From: Phorcus lineatus
Lineage: Eukaryota; Mollusca; Gastropoda; Trochida; Trochidae
Direction: 5' to 3'
NCBI GenBank assembly: GCA_921293015.1
Contig: OV121088.1
Span: forward strand, 23,845,645 to 23,909,644
Length of the DNA stretch: 64,000 bases
Below, one piece after another: positions 5,623-54,046 of the stretch; positions within the stretch are counted from its first letter, which is position 1, and every line of letters begins with the position of its first letter. Both the position numbers and the translations under genes were made by a program. The notes under the pieces are model-generated. The model was not told the DNA's origin, ran no database searches, and worked only from the letters and a program-made list of their open reading frames with translations.

Positions 5623-6793
5623 AATGTTATTCACAAATATTTCCTTATAGGCCTAAGTGTCCTTATATTTGGAATGAAGTGACAATCAAAATCTGTGATA
5701 TTGTTCTTTATTTTATATCTATCAATGATATTTAGTGTTTTGAAAATGTGATAGAGATTAGCTAGCACCCATATTGCTGCCCAGTTTGTGAAACCTTTTC
5801 AGTCATGTCAGCCAGGTCTGAAGTCCATATCAATATCAGCCTGAGGGACTTTAGCTTAGAGTTATCTCCCTTTGTATGGTAAATTTTTTTAGCCATTGTG
5901 TAGCCAGAGTATTTCTGTTTCATCTACAAATATCATGTTGATAACTTTTTGAATTTATTTAGTTTAAATATAAAAATTCAAACATTCTACTTATTGGTAA
6001 TTAATATATGCATGCCTGGTGCTGCTCACATTTTTTCTACCGGTAACTTTGAAAATTTTATTTGTAAAAAGAAATGTTCAAATAAAAACAACATATTCTT
6101 AAAATTTCCCTAGATTATGTTGGTCAGGAAAGTGTGACATATGATGAAAAGATTACAACATGTAATTTTTCAAATCATACTCATATCAACTCTCTGACCT
6201 GTGGCCTTTTTTCGGCTGTTATCAGCCATAATAAGAAAAGTGACATAATATAACATCGTTTTTTTAGATGTATTAAATTTTTTTTGAAAATTATCATGTC
6301 AAAATCTTTTTCAAGAAACTTTCTCATTGTAGATTCATATGCAATCTACATGGATGGGAAGTATAAATGTATATTTTGATGACTTAATTATTATCATTTG
6401 ATGATGCCTTGATTATAACTTTGAAGATAACAAGTTTTTAGCAACTTTTTTAAATGAAATTAATCTAGTATTATTTGTCATCATAAAGGTGTGACATTTC
6501 CAATATGTATTCAAGAAAGTAATAATCAATGGCTTTACATTTTTTATTCTACTTGTTTGATGAAAATATATTTAATCTATAACATAACATTAGACAATCA
6601 TCGTTCATAGAGTAGTTGGTTCCATTTGGTTTTAGAGAGTGGAAATCCTTTAAACATACTCATTATGATAACCTAAAACGGCTCATAAGATTACAACTTG
6701 AAAACCCTAAAACCCGTAAGGGGCAACACCTTTAAAACTTCTTGCCTTTGTTTCCTTGACCAGTTTGGACAATGACTTGTTAATCAAAATCCT
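5623..6793. other. Intergenic DNA after the polyamine oxidase gene
   Basis: AT-rich sequence with no gene. From about 6650 it grades into the short hairpin and foldback element. Confidence 0.5.
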
Positions 6794-29061: not shown

Positions 29062-29440
29062 CCCCTATAAAAAAAATTTCCTAAAAAGATGTTGCCGAAA
29101 CATTTCCGAAACATCTCTGCACCATCTTTTCAAGAGTTTTGAGCAAAATTTTACCATTGCCGCTAGCGGAAGGGTTTCTGGCAATGGTGCGGAAGGGTAT
29201 CTTCAGGCTGTCAAGAAATAAAATATTTAAAAAGTTGTTGCTGCAATGTATTAGCTACCCAGTCTTTCTTGTGGAGACCCTTCCGCAACATTGCCAGAAG
29301 ATAATTGGCCCTGCAGAGATGCTTTGGAAGGGTATCTTTTGGCTGCAAGGCAATAAAATATTTAAAAGGTTTTGCAGCAATGTATTTGCTACCTAGTACT
29401 TCTTGTGGAGACCCTTCCGCAACATTGCCAGAAGATAATT
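29062..29440 (+). repeat. 'TTCCGCA' dispersed repeat family, copy 2
   Basis: Opposite orientation to copy 1. It starts CCCCTATAAAAAAAAT, contains the internal palindrome CCGCTAGCGG, and repeats the block CTTGTGGAGACCCTTCCGCA at about 29269 and 29403, offset 134 bp (twice 67). Short ORFs here are a by-product of the repeat. Confidence 0.7.
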
Positions 29441-32245: not shown

Positions 32246-32965
32246 AGTAAAGATCAAACATTACAAAATATTCAAACAATATGACAACATTTTGTGAAAA
32301 AATTATGGTGGATGGATTTGTAGACAATGTTAATTCATAAACAGATTGAAAGGTGGGTTCATATACAGATTAAAAGAGATCATTTTGCAACATCAAATGT
32401 ATGAATTTATATTATTTCAAGATAATATCTCATTGACCTTTATTTATTTAAGTGATTGTATCACTGATAATCTGCTTGTCAATGCTGAATAATTTTGCTA
32501 AGACTTAATATAAAAAGGATAAATCATCAGTCATATATTTAATGCCTGTAAATAATACTTCTTTGGCACATTCTACAATGCCTACGGACCCAAAAAAGTT
32601 TATGTCTGCAAACCTGCCATGTCTACCAAAAAAACCACTACACCCGATTTGTTTGCCTGATTCATCTTATCAACATTGTGCATTAACAGATTGGATGATG
32701 TTAGAACACTGGTTTGTACATAACAAATATTGTTATGACTTGATGTGTATTTCATGTAGTAGTTTGTATTAGAGAGCTGTTAATATTAAAATGTTTATTA
32801 AAAATATTTAATACAGACACATGTTTTGTTGTATTTTTAGTGTTTGAAACTTAAAAGACGAAAAGTATACATGAGAGTAGATGTAACTTCATTATGGTAG
32901 TACATTTTTTAAGGAAATGGATGTGAAGTGGCTGTATGTTGTTGTAATGGTTGTGTGTATGCTTT

Positions 32966-33625
32966 TATGGCTTTCTGGCAATGCTTCCGAAGCATCTCAA
33001 CATATATCGTTTACAAGTGCTTCACAAGTTTTTATGGCTTGCTGGCAATGCTTCCGCACCATGTCCACAAATAAATTTATGAGAGCTTAGGAAGGTTTTA
33101 TTGCTTTCTGGCATTGTTCCCGCAACATCTCCACAAATAAAGTTTATGAGAGCTTGAGAAGTTTTTATGGCTTTCTGGCAATGCTTCTGCACCATGTCCA
33201 CAAATAAATTTATGAGGGTTAAAGAAGGTTTTATGGCTTTCTGGCAATGGTTCAGCACCATGTCCACAAATAAATTTATGAGAGCTTGAGAAGGTTTTAT
33301 TGCTTTCTGGCATTGTTTCTGCAACATCTCCACAAATAAAGTTTATGAGGGCTTGAGAAGTTTTTATGGCTTTCTGGCAATGGTTCCGCACCATGTCAAC
33401 AAATAAATTTATGAGGGTTTGAGAAGTTTTTATGGCTTTCTGGCAATGGTCCTGAACCATCTCCACAAAGTCTAAGATGGCCTGAAGGTTTTATGGCTTT
33501 CTGGCAATGCTTCCGAAACGTTTCCGAGATGGTCTGGAAGTTCTTGCGGATACATTGCGGCAATGGTAAAATTCCTGTTCTGGCAATGCTTCCGCAACGT
33601 ATTTTCTAGCCATTTTTTTTGGTAG
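32966..33625 (-). repeat. 'TTCCGCA' family, copy 3: 66-67 bp satellite array with trimer higher-order structure
   Basis: The landmark CTGGCAATG/CTGGCATTG recurs at 32975, 33042, 33108, 33175, 33241, 33307, 33374, 33440 and then 33501 and 33580. Spacings are 67, 66, 67, 66, 66, 67, 66, 61 and 79. The CATTG variant with CTCCACAAATAAAG recurs at 33108 and 33307 (199 bp), indicating a three-unit higher-order repeat. The end TTTTTGGTAGGGGTAA resembles the reverse complement of the termini of copies 1 and 2. The minus-strand ORFs of about 100-120 codons are repeat translation with a 22-residue period. Confidence 0.85.
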
Positions 33626-36177: not shown

Positions 36178-37252
36178 TTCTTCATCAATCCAGCTTCTAA
36201 AATGCCCCTTAAGGAAGTTAGAGACATATATGATAAATATATATATGATAATGCTTTGGATATTGCACAGTCCCTTGCCATGACCTTGAAATAACCTCAA
36301 AGTCATCAAACCGACAAATGTCTATGAATTGGAAAGGACACTTTGAAGTCAATCTATTATAAGCTCATGCAAGTATCTTGATCCAAGCTATTCTCTTATG
36401 AAACTCCTAAAGGTGACCTCCCATTCCAGTTCCCTTGCAAGCATATTCCTCTACACCTATATTTATACCTCCTATATTATTATTATTAACATTATACTCT
36501 TAATAAAACAAAATTCTCTGTATCTAAATTTATTACACTTCTGGGAGCTTAGGAGACTGAAGCCAATGAGTGGCATCAGAAAATATTTGGAGTGATGGGG
36601 AATGATTATCAGAGCCTGTACGTATTATAAGTAATTCACAAGTCTTGACAAGAGAAATCAAATTAAGTATAACTTTGAAAATGGATATGATATCAATGTT
36701 ATCTTTATGACGTTTGTATTTACTGTTTGCTAAGAAAATATTTGATTCTAAGAATTTATAACTATCAAACAGTCAATTTCCCCCAAATGTATGAAACCTT
36801 CAAGAGTTACTTGCAAAATATCTGGAAAATAAGAGATACATTGGAGGCTTGCCAACTTTTTTCACAATTCATAGCACTTCCAAAATCAATTGGTATTCAT
36901 TGTATAAATCCCCCTTTCCTCAAGTTCTGTATAGTGACATGATCCAGAATCCAAGCGAGAATTCTCAATATTAAATTGATATCACTAACATCTAATAAAC
37001 AGATGAAATTTAAAATACATAACATTTGCTTTGACTAAGTGATGAATTTTCTTTTCAAGATTTTTGTTGATGAAATCTATCAGCATGCATGTCAATTTGA
37101 TTTTCTATTAAACACTGTAAAGTCCCAGCAAACTAATCCATATTCAACATGAAAGAGTCCAGAGATATCTCATCAATCACGCAAGACATAAATTTATCGT
37201 CTGTTTAGTCGCAAATATGATTTCTTTTCCCTTTGTAGACTGATGCTGTGTA

Positions 37253-37520
37253 TGACACACTATACAGATCATGTTACACTATTCACATCATGACACACTA
37301 TTCACACCATGACACACTATTCACACCATGACACACTATTCACATCATGACACACTATTCACATCATGACACACTATTCACATCATGACACACTATTCAC
37401 ATCATGACATGTACACTATTCACATTATGATACACCATTTACATCATGACACACTTCACAGCATGACACATTATTCAAATCATGACACACTGTTCACATC
37501 TTGACACACTTTTCACATCA
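37253..37520. repeat. 19-bp tandem repeat, about 15 units
   Basis: The unit TGACACACTATTCACATCA is repeated, with the central seven units nearly identical and the ends degraded. Not CRISPR: there are no unique spacers. Confidence 0.95.
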
Positions 37521-38605
37521 TGGCAACAGAGGGGTGAAAACATCTTCTTGATCAACATGACAGATAATTTGACATTTTGATTAATTTGAGGGGAAAAATA
37601 TTCAAATTTTGGTCAAAAAAAAGGTAGAAATGCAATGAAAGTCATTCATTGTTTGGGATTATAATGCATGCAGATGGTATTCACACAATTTCTATTTTGG
37701 TTTAAAAGAACCATTTGCATTTAATTAAATTGAAAATATTAATCAAATTATATACTTTTTTTAGGCGAATCATTTGTTTTGAATTGTTTAAAATGATATT
37801 CAAATGGTTCTTTCAATAAATTCACTTAATGTTTTCCTCATAAGGCACCAAGAGAGTAATCAATTACCATAGAATATGGAAATTTTCTTTGGAACAGTTA
37901 AAAAAGAGGTCAATCTCTAAACATTAATTTAGAGATATAAAGTGGCATGATTATTAAATAGAATTAAATTAGATGATCACAATAGTGTTTATACTGAAAT
38001 TATTAAACTATTGAATAATTTTTAACATTACCAGTTGAAGTGAGTTTTAAGGAAAGCAATGAAGGTAGAGTGATATTTTTGCCTTTTTTGTTTATTGATA
38101 TATTAACTTCATATCAACCAATAATACACAAAAACGAGGAAATTTTTTACTTAAGGTAACAGCAGCTGTCTGTTTGTTTTGTGTCACTAGTGTACTATTT
38201 TCTAAATATTGACATGGATATATGTAAGCAGTGGACTATTGATAGAGTACAAAATATCAATGTATCCTTCTAAAACACCAACTTTCCCTGGATGGTTAAA
38301 CTTACACCCACTCCAAAGCATTGCAGCATTTCCCAAACCTTTTCTGAGCTTCCTCTCAAGGCAGTTGCAACTTTTTGTCAAAGAGGGTGCTACACTCAAA
38401 AAACCTTAAATTTCGGCGCTTAGCAGGAAATTTAGAATTAGCCAGTGTTTCCGATTCCATGCATTGGGTGTTACTCAGCTCCCTGAGGAGAATACAATCA
38501 AGTGGCCTTTGAGGTACCGTATGGTCATAATCTCTATTACTAGGTATCCTGTTCAGTGTTTGATGGACAGAGTTGTACCTTGTATTAAGAGCAAGGTAAC
38601 CTTAA

Positions 38606-45300: not shown

Positions 45301-46402
45301 TTGTTTCACAGCATTAGGGCAATACATGCATACATATTTTGTTAGGATAAAAAATATATTATTTTTTTTCTTGTTTGTGTCAAAGAAATCTTTGAAGGTT
45401 GGTGTCAAGTGTTTAAAGGTATTGCTCATTGAAGGAATATGGTTTAACTTTAAAACAGGCTTCTCAGTTAAGAGGCTGTTTGTTTCCTACTTGTTCGAAA
45501 TATTATAGTATAATACAGGCTAAACAGTGGTCTTATTCAGACCCAGACCTTTTTATTTCATGAAGGTCATTTCTTGAAGCAAATTAGAAATTGAGATTGG
45601 TTATCTTGTTTTTTAAACAAAGGAAATCAATATTTCTTTGTTGAGCACTTAAAAGAAAGCTATTAATTTTTCTATGAAATTTTTTTAATGAGAAGATTGT
45701 TGTTGTTAGTGTAAAATGTGGATTTGAGTCATCATGTGATATAGGCTAACATGTTCCTCCAATCTAATCTAATGTAATGACAGTTCAGAATCTTTCCCTC
45801 CTGATTATGTAATTATAACCTTTTTCAATTTGTTTCTTTCAGGAGACGATTCTGTCTGAATCATTTGCAATGATTTCCTAAATTAACACATATAACCTTG
45901 ACTGTTAATTAAACTCTTCTCATATAATAAAAACACTTTTTAGCAACTTGAAAATAGAATATCTCATTAAACATAATAGTATCAATTCTCAAGAAATCCC
46001 CAGTTAGATTCTGAAAGAATGTTCCCTTGTAAAAGGCCCTTAGGAGAAAGTAACATCCTATTAAGGTGACCTATATATCCATGGTGTTGAGGTTAATATG
46101 GTGTAAAAATTGTCAAGGGTATCATAATACAAACAATTTCAGTGCTAAGTAGCTCTGTCATTATGCTAAGGTAACCAAAGAATATTGGAATTGCCCCTGG
46201 ACATTGGACAATGGCTACTTATGGTCAAAGATGAACGGTACATTTGAAGTCAGAAAGACCCTCAGAGCTTCTTAAGAAACATGCAGTGTTCCCAAAGATT
46301 AAATATATATATATAATATCATAAATGTAAATACTTCAAATAGCTTCCATCACTCAGGTATTATACAGACAAATTTTTTTGGAAGAAAATCAAGATGATT
46401 TA

Positions 46403-46441
46403 TTCACAAGTACTTTCGACCATGAGGTCTCATCAGGTGAA
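46403..46441 (-). ncRNA. Minimal type I hammerhead ribozyme
   Basis: Minus-strand RNA folds as a complete hammerhead. Stem I is UUCAC (46441-46437) with GUGAA (46407-46403). The core CUGAUGA is at 46436-46430. Stem II is GACC-UCAU-GGUC (46429-46418), GAA is at 46417-46415, and stem III is AG-UA-CU (46414-46409). The cleavage-site nucleotide U17 is at 46408, giving a CUU triplet. All conserved core bases are present. The very short stem III and downstream GAAUAAAUC resemble Penelope-like-element and retrozyme ribozymes, which usually act as dimers. No reverse transcriptase ORF is adjacent. The fold is seen in the sequence; its activity is inferred. Confidence 0.75.
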
Positions 46442-47943
46442 GGACGTTAGTCGATTATCTGTTCAATAAGGTCAAAGGTAATATAAGTTGGTGTCTTTCC
46501 TAAGTCCTCAAACTCAAGTCCTCATCATCTTTAGCAACCACAGTTGCAGTCAAAATGTCAATGATATTCTGCCTCTTAATTCATAATGATATTGATAATA
46601 AAGAATTTTTATTTTGTTGCTGGTTTGCCATGCAACTATCTGTGTTCTTTAGGAAAAAATTTAAATCATCAATGATAATACCAAGGAGAGGGTATTCTAA
46701 GTCAGATAACATCTTCCTAATCCTTTATTATATAAGGAAATAATGTTTGGGATTAAGGCATAAAGATTGGAGTATTTTGGGAGTTTACTGCTGTATCAAC
46801 CACGTCCGTCATAATCAAGAACCTTTAAAAAACAGAAGATTTGTATCAGTCTGATAAATTGAATTCAAAGGGTTAAACTCTTGCCTTGCATTGAAAAATG
46901 TAAACTTAATGTCACTAAAAATGTTACAATATGTAGCATATAATTAATACCTAAATGGTATATATTTCAAAAGCAGATATGACCTCGTGTTAGTGTGTAC
47001 GTTCGCTTAACAATCCCTAAAATGGACTAAATAATTTTAAAGATAAAAAATTAAAATAAAACTTAGTTATTGATAACTTTATGCCATAATAAAAAAATTC
47101 AGAACAAATGGTAATTTAAGATCTTCAAATCGATAGTACCACCAATATTTAAAATTTCATGTACATTCAAATGACATATAAATACACACAAGGTGACTGA
47201 ACCCCTTACATTAGATAGATACTTATACATAATCTTATTTCAGCCAAAATCATTCTGTAAATCAGAATTATCTGTAAATAAAAAAGTACTGAATCTAATT
47301 TCAATGGGTATCAGTTTAAGTAATTTTATTCTAAAAATGGTAACCATATATCCATATTCATTAACAAGAGATATCAAAATATCTTCTCCCCATGCTCTGG
47401 AAATTGAATAAGTTCACATTATCCCTAAGATCCTAAAATAGCCTCAAAATTAAAATAATTACCTGCAGTCTATTTTTTAAATCCAAAACCTGATCACACA
47501 ATTTAGTAGTTCATAAGTATGAATTACACTCCTAAAGACGTATAGGAAAGAGGAAGTGTAAATCTACACCCATATAATTAATATCCTATTAGACTGAACC
47601 TTGCAGGGGAATGAAAAATGTGAGATTTGACATTTTATATTTGATGACAATATCTATGCTCATTACACTGATCCACCTGTCCTGCTTGTGACCTTGATGA
47701 GTTTAATCTACCTTAGAGACAATAAAGTACCTGCAATCAGTCATTAAGTTCAAATAAGTTATAAAGTTCAGCAAGAGTCAGTGCTGTTTATCATTGGAGT
47801 GGTCATCTGCAGACTGAAGAACCCACAGATTTATCAGATGACCGACTGCCTCCCTTTCTGAGTCTTGTGGTCAAGATTAGGATATTATTTGTAAATATGT
47901 CTATTGACCACTATCCATTTCTCCATCAATGAGTAAAGTTTGT
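46442..47943. other. Non-coding DNA beside the ribozyme
   Basis: If the hammerhead marks the end of a Penelope-like element, its body should lie here on the minus strand. I see no reverse transcriptase or GIY-YIG reading frame, so the element is truncated or non-autonomous. Confidence 0.4.
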
Positions 47944-47957
47944 CATTGGATATAGGA

Positions 47958-48250
47958 GGTTAGGTTAGTTGGTGTTTAATGCCACTTGCAAGATTATTTC
48001 ACTTATATCGCGGCTGCTAGTATTATTGCAGAGAGAAAGCCGGAACACCAATGTGGTTATGCATTGCGGTGAAACCTGCGAGCACCGGCTGGAACTAGCG
48101 AACCATTGGTGGTATTGCGCTGAAATTCAGTGTAGCCTTGCACCCAAACCTGACTGCGTGTAGAACAGTTCTCTACTGCAGACAAAGTTGCCGAGCCCCT
48201 GTCAGGATTCGAACCACGGAAGCCGAACGCCCTAACCACTGCGCTATCCC
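47958..48250 (-). mobile_element. SINE family A, copy 4, near full length, with TSD
   Basis: Flanked by CATTGGATATAGGA (47944-47957) and CATTGGATTTAGGA (48251-48264), one mismatch in 14. The minus-strand head reads GGGGATAGCGCAGTGGTTAG (box A) and GTGGTTCGAATCC (box B). The core TTTCACTTATATCGCGGCTG is well preserved; the tail is TTAGGTTAG-like. Confidence 0.9.
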
Positions 48251-48289
48251 CATTGGATTTAGGATATCCGGCCACTTCCAAGATGGGTG

Positions 48290-48512
48290 CAGATAATAAT
48301 AATAATGATAATCATAATGATGATAATAATAATGACCCTTTATTGTCCTCAGGAGATTTATTTTATGTCTCATCACTCAGCAGCCACAATGCAGTATGAG
48401 TTAAAGCCATGATCTGTCCTGATCCATGATCTGCAAGGTATAAAGCAACCAGGAATCGAACCCCCATCTTCCGAGTGTGGAACGGACGCCCTACCAATTG
48501 ACCTACATCCCA
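48290..48512 (-). mobile_element. Second tRNA-headed SINE (family B)
   Basis: The minus strand begins CTGGGATGTAGGTCAATTGG (box A-like) and GGGGGTTCGATTCC (box B) at 48440-48512. An anticodon arm can be drawn with loop TCCACAC (CAC anticodon, valine-type), but the T and acceptor stems are poor. A ~100-bp body follows and the element ends in an ATT/ATC microsatellite at 48292-48340. Inserted ~40 bp from SINE A copy 4 in the same orientation. Confidence 0.65.
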
Positions 48513-51305: not shown

Positions 51306-51630
51306 GAGTTGGTGTTTAACGCCCCTTTCAAGATTATTTCACTTATATCGCAGCTGCTAGTATTATTACTGGGTGAAAGCCCGCAATACCATTTGGCTAC
51401 GCATTGCGGTGAAACCTGTGAGCAACGACTGGAACTAGCGAACCATGGGTGGAACTAGCGAACCATGGGTGGTACTGCGCTGAAATTCAGTGTAGCATTG
51501 CACCCAAACCTGACTGCGTGTAGAACAGTTCTCTACTGCAGACAAAGTTGCCGAGCCCCTGGCGATTTGAACCACGGACCTCAGTGCATGATCCGAAGCG
51601 GAACGCGCTTACCACTGCGCTATCCTGCCC
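51306..51630 (-). mobile_element. SINE family A, copy 5, full length, exact 13-bp TSD
   Basis: Flanked by the exact duplication CACTTGCTTTGGT at 51293-51305 and 51631-51643. Minus-strand head GGGGCAGGATAGCGCAGTGG, box B GTGGTTCAAATCG, complete core and a GAGGTGAG-type tail. It has a private ~20-bp tandem duplication of GGAACTAGCGAACCATGGGT at 51430-51470. Confidence 0.92.
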
Positions 51631-51643
51631 CACTTGCTTTGGT

Positions 51644-53720
51644 TAATGAAATGGTAATAACCATCTGACCATGAGAACAAAGAAGTAGATTCATGGATTC
51701 AGAATCTTGCTGTGAGTTTACTCAAAATCTCTTCTACAACAAACCAATCTGGAGTTGTGCACTTGAAATTTTTTCTTGACTATCAAAAGGGAGTTTCTTC
51801 TATTTACCCCCATACAATAAATCATGACTTGATGATACAGACATTGAGAGATTTTGGTATGAATTAAGAGTGGGTAATGTTAGAATCAAGACTATATATA
51901 TTAAGACTAAACAGCCTACCTGTGAAATAATTCTTTGCAAAACATAAAATATTTTTCCAATTATGATTTGATAGTATATATTCATCCAATTGCATATGAC
52001 AAGTAGTTTAAGTAGTATAGGTAAATTACAGGTAATATTTCAAGTTTAAGCTGAAATAGGTTTTTTGGTCACCAAAACTTTCATAATTTTAAAACAATGT
52101 TCTAAATGCTCCTTTCTTTAAAAGAATATCTATCTAACATTATTCTACATCCAACTTTCTTACAAAGAATAAAGCGAGGTTATAGCTTTATCTATATCAT
52201 TCAAATAAAATTTGCAAATGTACTTTTGAGAACATTTTCATGAAGACCATTTTTCTCAATAAATAATTCAAGGAAACAGAATTAATCTAAACATCATTCT
52301 TGTCAGAGTAATCACTATTCCTAAAATTAATAGCCTCATTAGGTAACTGTCTTTATTAATCATTCACAAAGTTTTCCTCCTTCTTTCCGTCATGTCAACC
52401 ATAATTCAAGATTAATTTCCTGTATTTAACAACAATCTTGAAAAATGACATCAACCCACAAATAAAAGATGGCAAAATGACCCTGAGTTGTAACACAGTG
52501 ACAAACAGCTTAATTTTACAAACATAAAAGATTAACTAGAAATAGAAGGTTAATATTGATTGTCACGACCGAGAAGGAAATCAGGAGGAGATGCAAAACT
52601 CATTTACAAATAATTACACTAGCTCCTACATTCCAAGAGTGATAAAAACGTTTGTAGTTTCCGATTTTTTTAGAGATACAAATAAACACATTTGACATAA
52701 CTTTTGAATTCCTATCCAATTTTTTGATGACAAATAAACACAATTGCCATAACTTTTGATGACAAATAAACACATATCAATATATCAATATATTGCAATA
52801 CAGAAACGTCATGATAGGGACTGGTACACTCTTCTGAAAATATCCAATATATCAGAGGTTCTAAAATTTAATTTTTTTTATAAAATTGCAGAATATGCAA
52901 ATTAAGAGAATTAATCCATTCCTGAATTATCTCTTTACAAAACAATGGTCAGTTGCATGAGTTCACTATTCTAATTGTTGTTAAATAGTCAAGAGAGCAT
53001 GGAGATATTTAAAATATGAAAAGTACCAATATATTGCAATTTGTTTTCCAAACACTTTCTGTATTGCGATATTATATGTGATACAGAAATGAGGAGCGAT
53101 ATGCATCTTTAATTATCATGCTGATCACTACTTTTAGGGACATATAAGGAAAACATATTTGAGATACTAATTTGATATACACAAGCCATTTGCTGTCTTG
53201 ATTTCTCAGAAGTTCCATAGAGACATAGAGAGGTAGCGATCCAAAGTTCAGATAAGGAAAACTTGTCCTTAACAGGTTTCCATAGACAGTTATAGCTAAC
53301 ACATTCCGTGTACATTCTTTTGTTTCTTCAATCTGTTCTGTCAGTCAACTTGCTTTATTCATCATATATCATTTACAGAGGGGCTTTTATGTTGTTTTTT
53401 CCTATGATTAGATAATGTATCAACTACTACATACACTAGCTGTTTTATACCTATAGTATTTGAATTGTATAGAATATTTTCAAAATTAGCTTTTTATCAA
53501 ATTGTCAAGTTAAAAGTATACAGCTTATGACATTTATTATTATCAATCTATCTGAAATATTTTGAAGAAACATCAAATCAATAAAACTTTAGAATTAAGT
53601 TCCCTGATTTTTTAACATTGAATAGAATTATTCAAACCTCCTATAACATCTTTTTTAATCAATCAATCAAATATATTTATATATAATACATCATCACAAT
53701 TATAGGAGGAACATTTCTTA
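51644..53720. other. Intergenic or intronic DNA
   Basis: AT-rich, one short tandem repeat (52678). No gene or RNA recognised. Confidence 0.4.
52678..52775. repeat. Short direct repeats (ACAAATAAACACA, three copies)
   Basis: Copies at about 52679, 52730 and 52762, two followed by CATAACTTTTGA. A small tandem expansion. Confidence 0.65.
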
Positions 53721-53727
53721 ATTACTG

Positions 53728-54046
53728 ACAGGGGGGGGGAAAGTGCAGTGGTTAGCATGTTTGGTTTTGGATCAAGAGGTGGTTCGAATCCCTACAGAGG
53801 CTGGGCAACTTTTTCTGCAGTAGAGAACTGTTCTACATGCAGTAAGGTTTCGATGCAATGGTACACTGAATTTCAGCGTAGTACCACCCATGGTTCGCTA
53901 GTGACAGCCGATACTCGCAGGTTTCACCACAATGCAGAGCCACAATGGTGTTGCGGGCTTTCTCCCTGCAATAATACTAGCAGCCGCGATATAAGTGAAA
54001 TACTCTTGAAAGCGGCGTTAAACCCCAACTAACCTCACCTCACCTC
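53728..54046 (+). mobile_element. SINE family A, copy 6, full length, with TSD
   Basis: Plus-orientation copy: head GTGCAGTGGTTAG and GGTTCGAATCCC, body CTGCAGTAGAACTG-like, core GCGATATAAGTGAAATACTC, then the CCTCACCTCACCT tail. The flanking repeat ATTACTG occurs at 53721-53727 and 54047-54053. The 94-codon ORF inside it is SINE sequence, not a gene. Confidence 0.88.

Follow-up and report, generated by a model that had tools for sequence, protein, structure and literature searches.

A stretch of 39 nt on the minus strand of the window (the whole 64,000 nucleotides of Phorcus lineatus DNA analysed here, on contig C13 of the 958 Mb genome that we searched) reads as a minimal hammerhead ribozyme, and the locus raises the question of whether its bases came together by chance, mark a small ribozyme-bearing element, serve the host, or belong to something larger. 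We conclude, with a probability of about 93%, that the hammerhead belongs to an endonuclease-bearing Penelope-like retrotransposon, of which a decayed pseudo-LTR, truncated at its 5' end, remains here. The coordinates of its parts are collected in Table 1.

Table 1. Parts of the hammerhead and of the remnant that contains it, in positions of the window.
Feature	Position	Strand	Basis
Minimal type I hammerhead	46403..46441	minus	sequence reading, structural scans, RF00163 22.8 bits below cut-off
Hammerhead stem I	46441-46437/46407-46403	minus	sequence reading
Hammerhead CUGAUGA	46436-46430	minus	sequence reading
Hammerhead stem II, loop UCAU	46429-46426/46421-46418	minus	sequence reading
Hammerhead GAAA	46417-46414	minus	sequence reading
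Hammerhead GUAC	46413-46410	minus	
Hammerhead UU	46409-46408	minus	
Predicted cut site	between 46408 and 46407	minus	read from sequence
AGUACU palindrome, could form a 6-bp stem III with a second copy	46409..46414	minus	sequence; computed duplex with a second copy, -4.8 kcal/mol
Possible distal stem I, 5' strand AAUCGA	46451..46456	minus	written structure 15/15 standard pairs, one G-U
Possible distal stem I, 3' strand UUGAUU	46388..46393	minus	as for its 5' strand
Whole recognisable remnant, old 5'-truncated pseudo-LTR	46300..46458	minus	about 82-86% identity to dispersed copies; upstream flank unmatched
Diverged tail extension of pseudo-LTR (32 nt in young copies)	46328..46362	minus	aligned with other copies
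AT-rich run where (AT)n follows most tailed copies	46302..46320	minus	sequence

Read along the minus strand from 46441 to 46403, the motif is UUCAC-CUGAUGA-GACC-UCAU-GGUC-GAAA-GUAC-UU-GUGAA. A hammerhead requires CUGANGA, GAAA, a UH site and three stems, and all of these are present, with stem I (5 bp) and stem II (4 bp) pairing without gaps. The core bases, three stems and open stem I of a type I hammerhead are found here, stem III being either a 2-bp stub or intermolecular. As far as its bases can tell, the motif is thereby confirmed as a real hammerhead motif, and the sequence-only reading, which had described a complete minimal hammerhead on this strand, was right that every core base and stem is there. 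It had also held a chance origin to be very unlikely, and this is borne out: with a strict descriptor (stem I of at least 5 bp, stem II of at least 4 bp, stem III of at least 2 bp and a UH site) we found one match on the two strands of the window as compared to none in 400 first-order Markov shuffles, so the 39-nt motif is beyond chance expectation. A looser structural scan of both strands gave one match in the window as compared to two in 60 shuffles.

Rfam lists nothing anywhere in the window at its gathering threshold, and a search with 901 bases returned no hammerhead at E values up to 10. In a search with 66 bases, RF00163 (Hammerhead_1) matches positions 46442-46402 on the minus strand with 22.8 bits and an E value of 5.6e-4, as compared to a cut-off of 34, so the covariance-model match above threshold that had been proposed as a check was not obtained. 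The gathering score, which the window hammerhead does not reach, is a threshold chosen by the database and not a feature of the RNA itself. When we searched the whole genome with RF00163 there was no match, but since 0 of 14 control genomes gave one either, this search is uninformative.

Searching the genome for the 34-nt core plus the stem I strand with up to two mismatches gave 339 places (170+169), as compared to 0+0 for the reversed pattern; the dispersed copies that a genome-wide search had been proposed to look for are thus found. With a 160-base query, the 40 of 479 candidates that were scored include dispersed copies on many contigs, at least 39 of them at 85–86% identity over 114–115 query bases; four shorter ones have 89–91% identity. 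The 3' flank alone found 29 further places, which are mostly more diverged (73–86% identity), and a genome search with the upstream flank (46442-46640) matched only itself. Because the 3' flank has relatives and the upstream flank matches only itself, the window copy represents an old insertion that was 5'-truncated at about 46458; it is dead and without a frame. The shortness of the motif and its Rfam score under the cut-off would favour bases arranged by chance, but the absence of strict matches from 400 shuffles and the number of matching places in the genome speak against this, and since homologous copies exist, a chance origin is refuted, leaving it a negligible probability.

Elsewhere in the window, the two longest frames match a Pfam amine oxidase and a serpentine receptor (7TM_GPCR_Srw, 7tm_1). 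The short frames 48057-48311, 48099-48296, 51459-51668 and 53706-54032 have peptides in common (those at 48057 and 53706 share SAVENCST and YTEFQR, those at 48099 and 51459 share CRTVLYCRQSCRAP) and are apparently copies of another repeat. Two tandem arrays, 29191-29440 (unit 134 nt) and 32963-33515 (unit about 66 nt), share at least CATTGCCAGAA, inverted, and 37252-37522 is a 19-nt minisatellite of 14.2 copies (ATGACACACTATTCACATC).

Stems were compared in 13 hammerhead-like loci on contig C1, among which L088 belongs to the window's own family. Across families, stem II is GACC/GGUC, GUCAAU/AUUGAC, GUUCGA/UCGAAC or GUUCCA/UGGAAC, and the stem III palindromes are AGUACU, AUACUAGUAU (L082, L083), ACUAGU (L077) and ACCGGU (L079); in the loci with the other palindromes the stems II differ but are paired. 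Stem II is broken in L081, stem III is non-palindromic in two of the 13 loci (L084, L085), and five (L076, L078, L080, L086, L087) had no stem I/III solution in the scan. Within the window's family covariation is weak, the old copies being too decayed to tell, and it is clearer between families. Of the copies with covarying stems that had been proposed as a check, the copies are abundant, while the covariation holds more clearly between families than within the window's own.

The pattern CTGATGAGN{8,14}CGAAA occurs at 609+627 places genome-wide as compared to 33+32 for the reversed pattern, and was used in place of the looser CTGATGAN{8,20}GAAA (10443+10879 as compared to 2473+3311 reversed), which we set aside. 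Frequent among the matches listed for it is a second hammerhead family (CTGATGAGTCAATACTATTGACGAAA) with the stem III palindrome ATACTAGTAT, seen in L082 and L083 (C1:1525139 and C1:7528456), at L047:8170 and at L053:320. In the hammerhead-like loci L077-L080 of contig C1, GAA is followed by ACTAGT or ACCGGT, and some 30–40 nt upstream lies a stretch resembling TATATAAG or TATATATA, which is absent from L076.

In the window hammerhead, the GUAC between GAAA and UU leaves no space for a hairpin loop. Together with the A before it and the U after it, it makes up the palindrome AGUACU, for which good pairing is predicted only with a second copy, a point that the sequence-only reading had missed. 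Such a stem III would suit cleavage as a dimer. When two strands of the 39-nt minimal RNA were folded together, the prediction had a stem II in each strand, stems I formed between the strands and an 8-bp AAGUACUU duplex, at -23.2 as compared to 2 x -9.2 kcal/mol for the monomers. In two-strand folds of longer RNAs (window and young copies) the AAGUACUU duplex was kept and the whole double hammerhead was not formed. A distal stem I, likewise missed by that reading, can be drawn past an internal loop; the minimum-energy fold of a young copy includes it along with stems I and II, and that of the longer window copy is without the distal stem. The bases of the distal stem are AAUC/GAUU in the window copy and L056 and AACC/GGUU in young copies; because L057 and L074 have AACC with GAUU, this covariation is only suggestive.

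Among relatives, we read 16 stretches of 9901 bases, seven of which hold a second hammerhead with the same core. In L040, L042 and L043 it is inverted and lies 2.9–3.5 kb off with frames between; in L047, L052 and L054 it is inverted and 0.8–1.3 kb off; and in L044 it is direct and 2976 bases off. The frames of L040 and L043 run towards a copy with a tail, and the long frame of L042 runs towards a copy without one. The two arms of a head-to-head inverted pair are unequal in length and contain the same portion of the element. Among seven frames searched, which come from L040, L042, L043, L044 and L052, five contain GIY-YIG (PF01541, E 3.8e-10 to 1.3e-11), and a weak RVT_1 (E 2.8e-4, under Pfam's cut-off) is present in one of the seven; the two frames without GIY-YIG, which are upstream ones, have no Pfam match. 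GIY-YIG comes after the weak RVT_1 stretch in the same coding region of L043:7822-9168; the coding regions of L043 and L044 are split across two overlapping frames, which we used unmended, and a PDB sequence search with the RT/EN frame gave no match at E up to 0.01. Copies extend back from a common end to differing points, and the longer ones hold the RT/GIY-YIG frame.

At the common end, we found two kinds of termini. Among 37 distinct hammerhead copies, 24 are tailed, running past TTTTTCTATAT into a tail of about 32 nt (AAGACTTGAG...GAACTGTT, with variants), and 13 are tail-less. The tail is followed by (AT)4 or longer in 22 of the 24 distinct tailed copies, the window copy included. A head-to-head partner is present for 12 of the 13 tail-less copies, and that partner is tailed in 12 of 12; the remaining tail-less copy is the first hammerhead of L044. 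In the stretches read, no tailed copy has a tailed partner, and none of the 16 long ones showed a clean direct unit of pseudo-LTR, frame and pseudo-LTR. The candidate for such a direct tandem unit, L044, was rejected: the same unrelated repeat follows both of its hammerheads (positions 6684 and 9638), so the pair looks like separate insertions. Sequence related to that repeat also follows copies in L025, L026 and L038.

The window hammerhead is thus the worn end of a known kind of retrotransposon and mostly ordinary. The sequence-only reading had instead suggested a small non-autonomous element, since no RT frame adjoins the motif, and such a retrozyme-like ribozyme element would be moved in trans. 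At about 160 nt the window copy is short and lacks a frame, short copies are numerous, and animal retrozymes of about 170–400 nt with type I hammerheads are described in PMC7229834. However, the different points to which copies reach back and the RT/GIY-YIG frame of the longer ones argue against this, and the same pseudo-LTR that is found in the window flanks such frames in relatives. The window copy is itself cut short at its 5' end, and its upstream flank has no other genomic copy. Retrozymes are non-coding tandem repeats of 150–450 bp; Tandem Repeats Finder gives no array at the site, and the relatives have frames. The retrozyme-like reading is largely refuted, and we hold it to be very unlikely.

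Also very unlikely is that the ribozyme of a pseudo-LTR remnant was retained for processing a host transcript, a function that PMC6155905 describes as proposed for the intronic hammerheads of amniotes. The window copy is the best preserved among the old copies read, none of 20 other old copies examined (of 29 found) keeps all core bases and stems, and compared to five young copies its substitutions fall at 1 of 39 core and 16–17 of 71 flank positions. When the majority of 12 old copies is taken for comparison, however, its differences number 1 in the 39 core columns and 13 in the 71 flank columns, and one core and eight flank differences among these are common to another old copy. Its own changes are then 0 in the core as compared to 5 in the flank, which chance allows, and the copy was selected for being intact; gene prediction aside, no exon came to light around it. 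Chance and the mode of discovery therefore explain its state well enough, and we do not claim host retention.

In the longer copies read, a coding region with a putative RT and GIY-YIG precedes the hammerhead-bearing pseudo-LTR; the insertion starts in a second, inverted pseudo-LTR, and there is a tail on one of the two. A hammerhead in the transcript would cut at UU^GUGAA, most probably once a pair of hammerheads joins via AGUACU, which would give a stem III of 6 bp. If the Anolis element is a guide, the element protein may nick AT-rich DNA (here typically beside (AT)n), reverse transcription may begin inside the transcript past the hammerhead, and two alternative start sites may yield ends with or without the tail. 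In the Anolis element, both strands of AT-rich DNA are cut, the tail corresponds to what lies between two internal sites at which reverse transcription begins, and the PAc hammerhead cleaves only with protein present (PMC11167929). Hammerhead mutants left insertion in vitro unaffected, there were no reads starting or ending at the hammerhead cut site, and start sites are alike on both strands (PMC11167929); these data weigh against a simple ribozyme role in mobilisation.

A more speculative version, which we consider unlikely, is that the palindromic stem III also pairs two element RNAs and that the protein, cutting both strands of the target, copies one RNA from each nick, one side starting at the tail site and the other at the tail-less site. 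If this were true, RNA pairing would explain why the hammerhead is dimeric, why insertions lie head to head with arms from one and the same part of the element, and why in 12 of 12 pairs only one arm has a tail. Against it stand the lack of a strand difference in start site and the normal insertion of hammerhead mutants in vitro in the Anolis element (PMC11167929), and the preference given to self-priming for inverted ends in PMC3846280.

Hammerheads in Penelope-like elements are already in print (Cervera and de la Pena 2014; Lunse, Weinberg and Breaker 2017; as cited in PMC7761336 and PMC6155905), and the window family adds another member; the short-stem-III form had rightly been recognised as one known from these elements. 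As these sources describe them, the published minimal Penelope hammerheads share the type I order, a very short stem III and a place in the pseudo-LTRs of an RT and GIY-YIG element, and their dimeric action is published (via PMC7761336). The window family differs in having its own sequence, the stem III AGUACU and no clean direct tandem among the stretches seen. Inverted pseudo-LTRs with a tail on one are described for Penelope elements, and Penelope/Poseidon elements (Adineta vaga Penelope, PMC3846280; Anolis PAc, PMC11167929) share these with the window family, together with AT-rich targets and GIY-YIG after RT, a likeness of anatomy. The PAc cut site lies 26 bp inside the ORF start (PMC11167929), whereas here the hammerhead sits roughly 150–180 nt past the frame in relatives. 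Metazoan non-LTR retrozymes share the type I hammerhead and dispersed copies but are characterised in PMC7229834 as short, RT-less repeats a few hundred bp in length, unlike the window family with its RT/EN frames. The newt satellite hammerhead (via PMC6155905) has a weak stem III and dimer action, which is predicted here, and resides in satellite DNA, in contrast to the Penelope-like element of the window.

A 39-nt motif that falls below the Rfam threshold can thus be placed confidently via its genomic relatives. The function of hammerheads in Penelope-like elements was called "still a mystery" in 2020 (PMC7761336), and the many near-identical copies in this genome, with hammerheads and both types of end, are a natural set for probing the role of the hammerhead.
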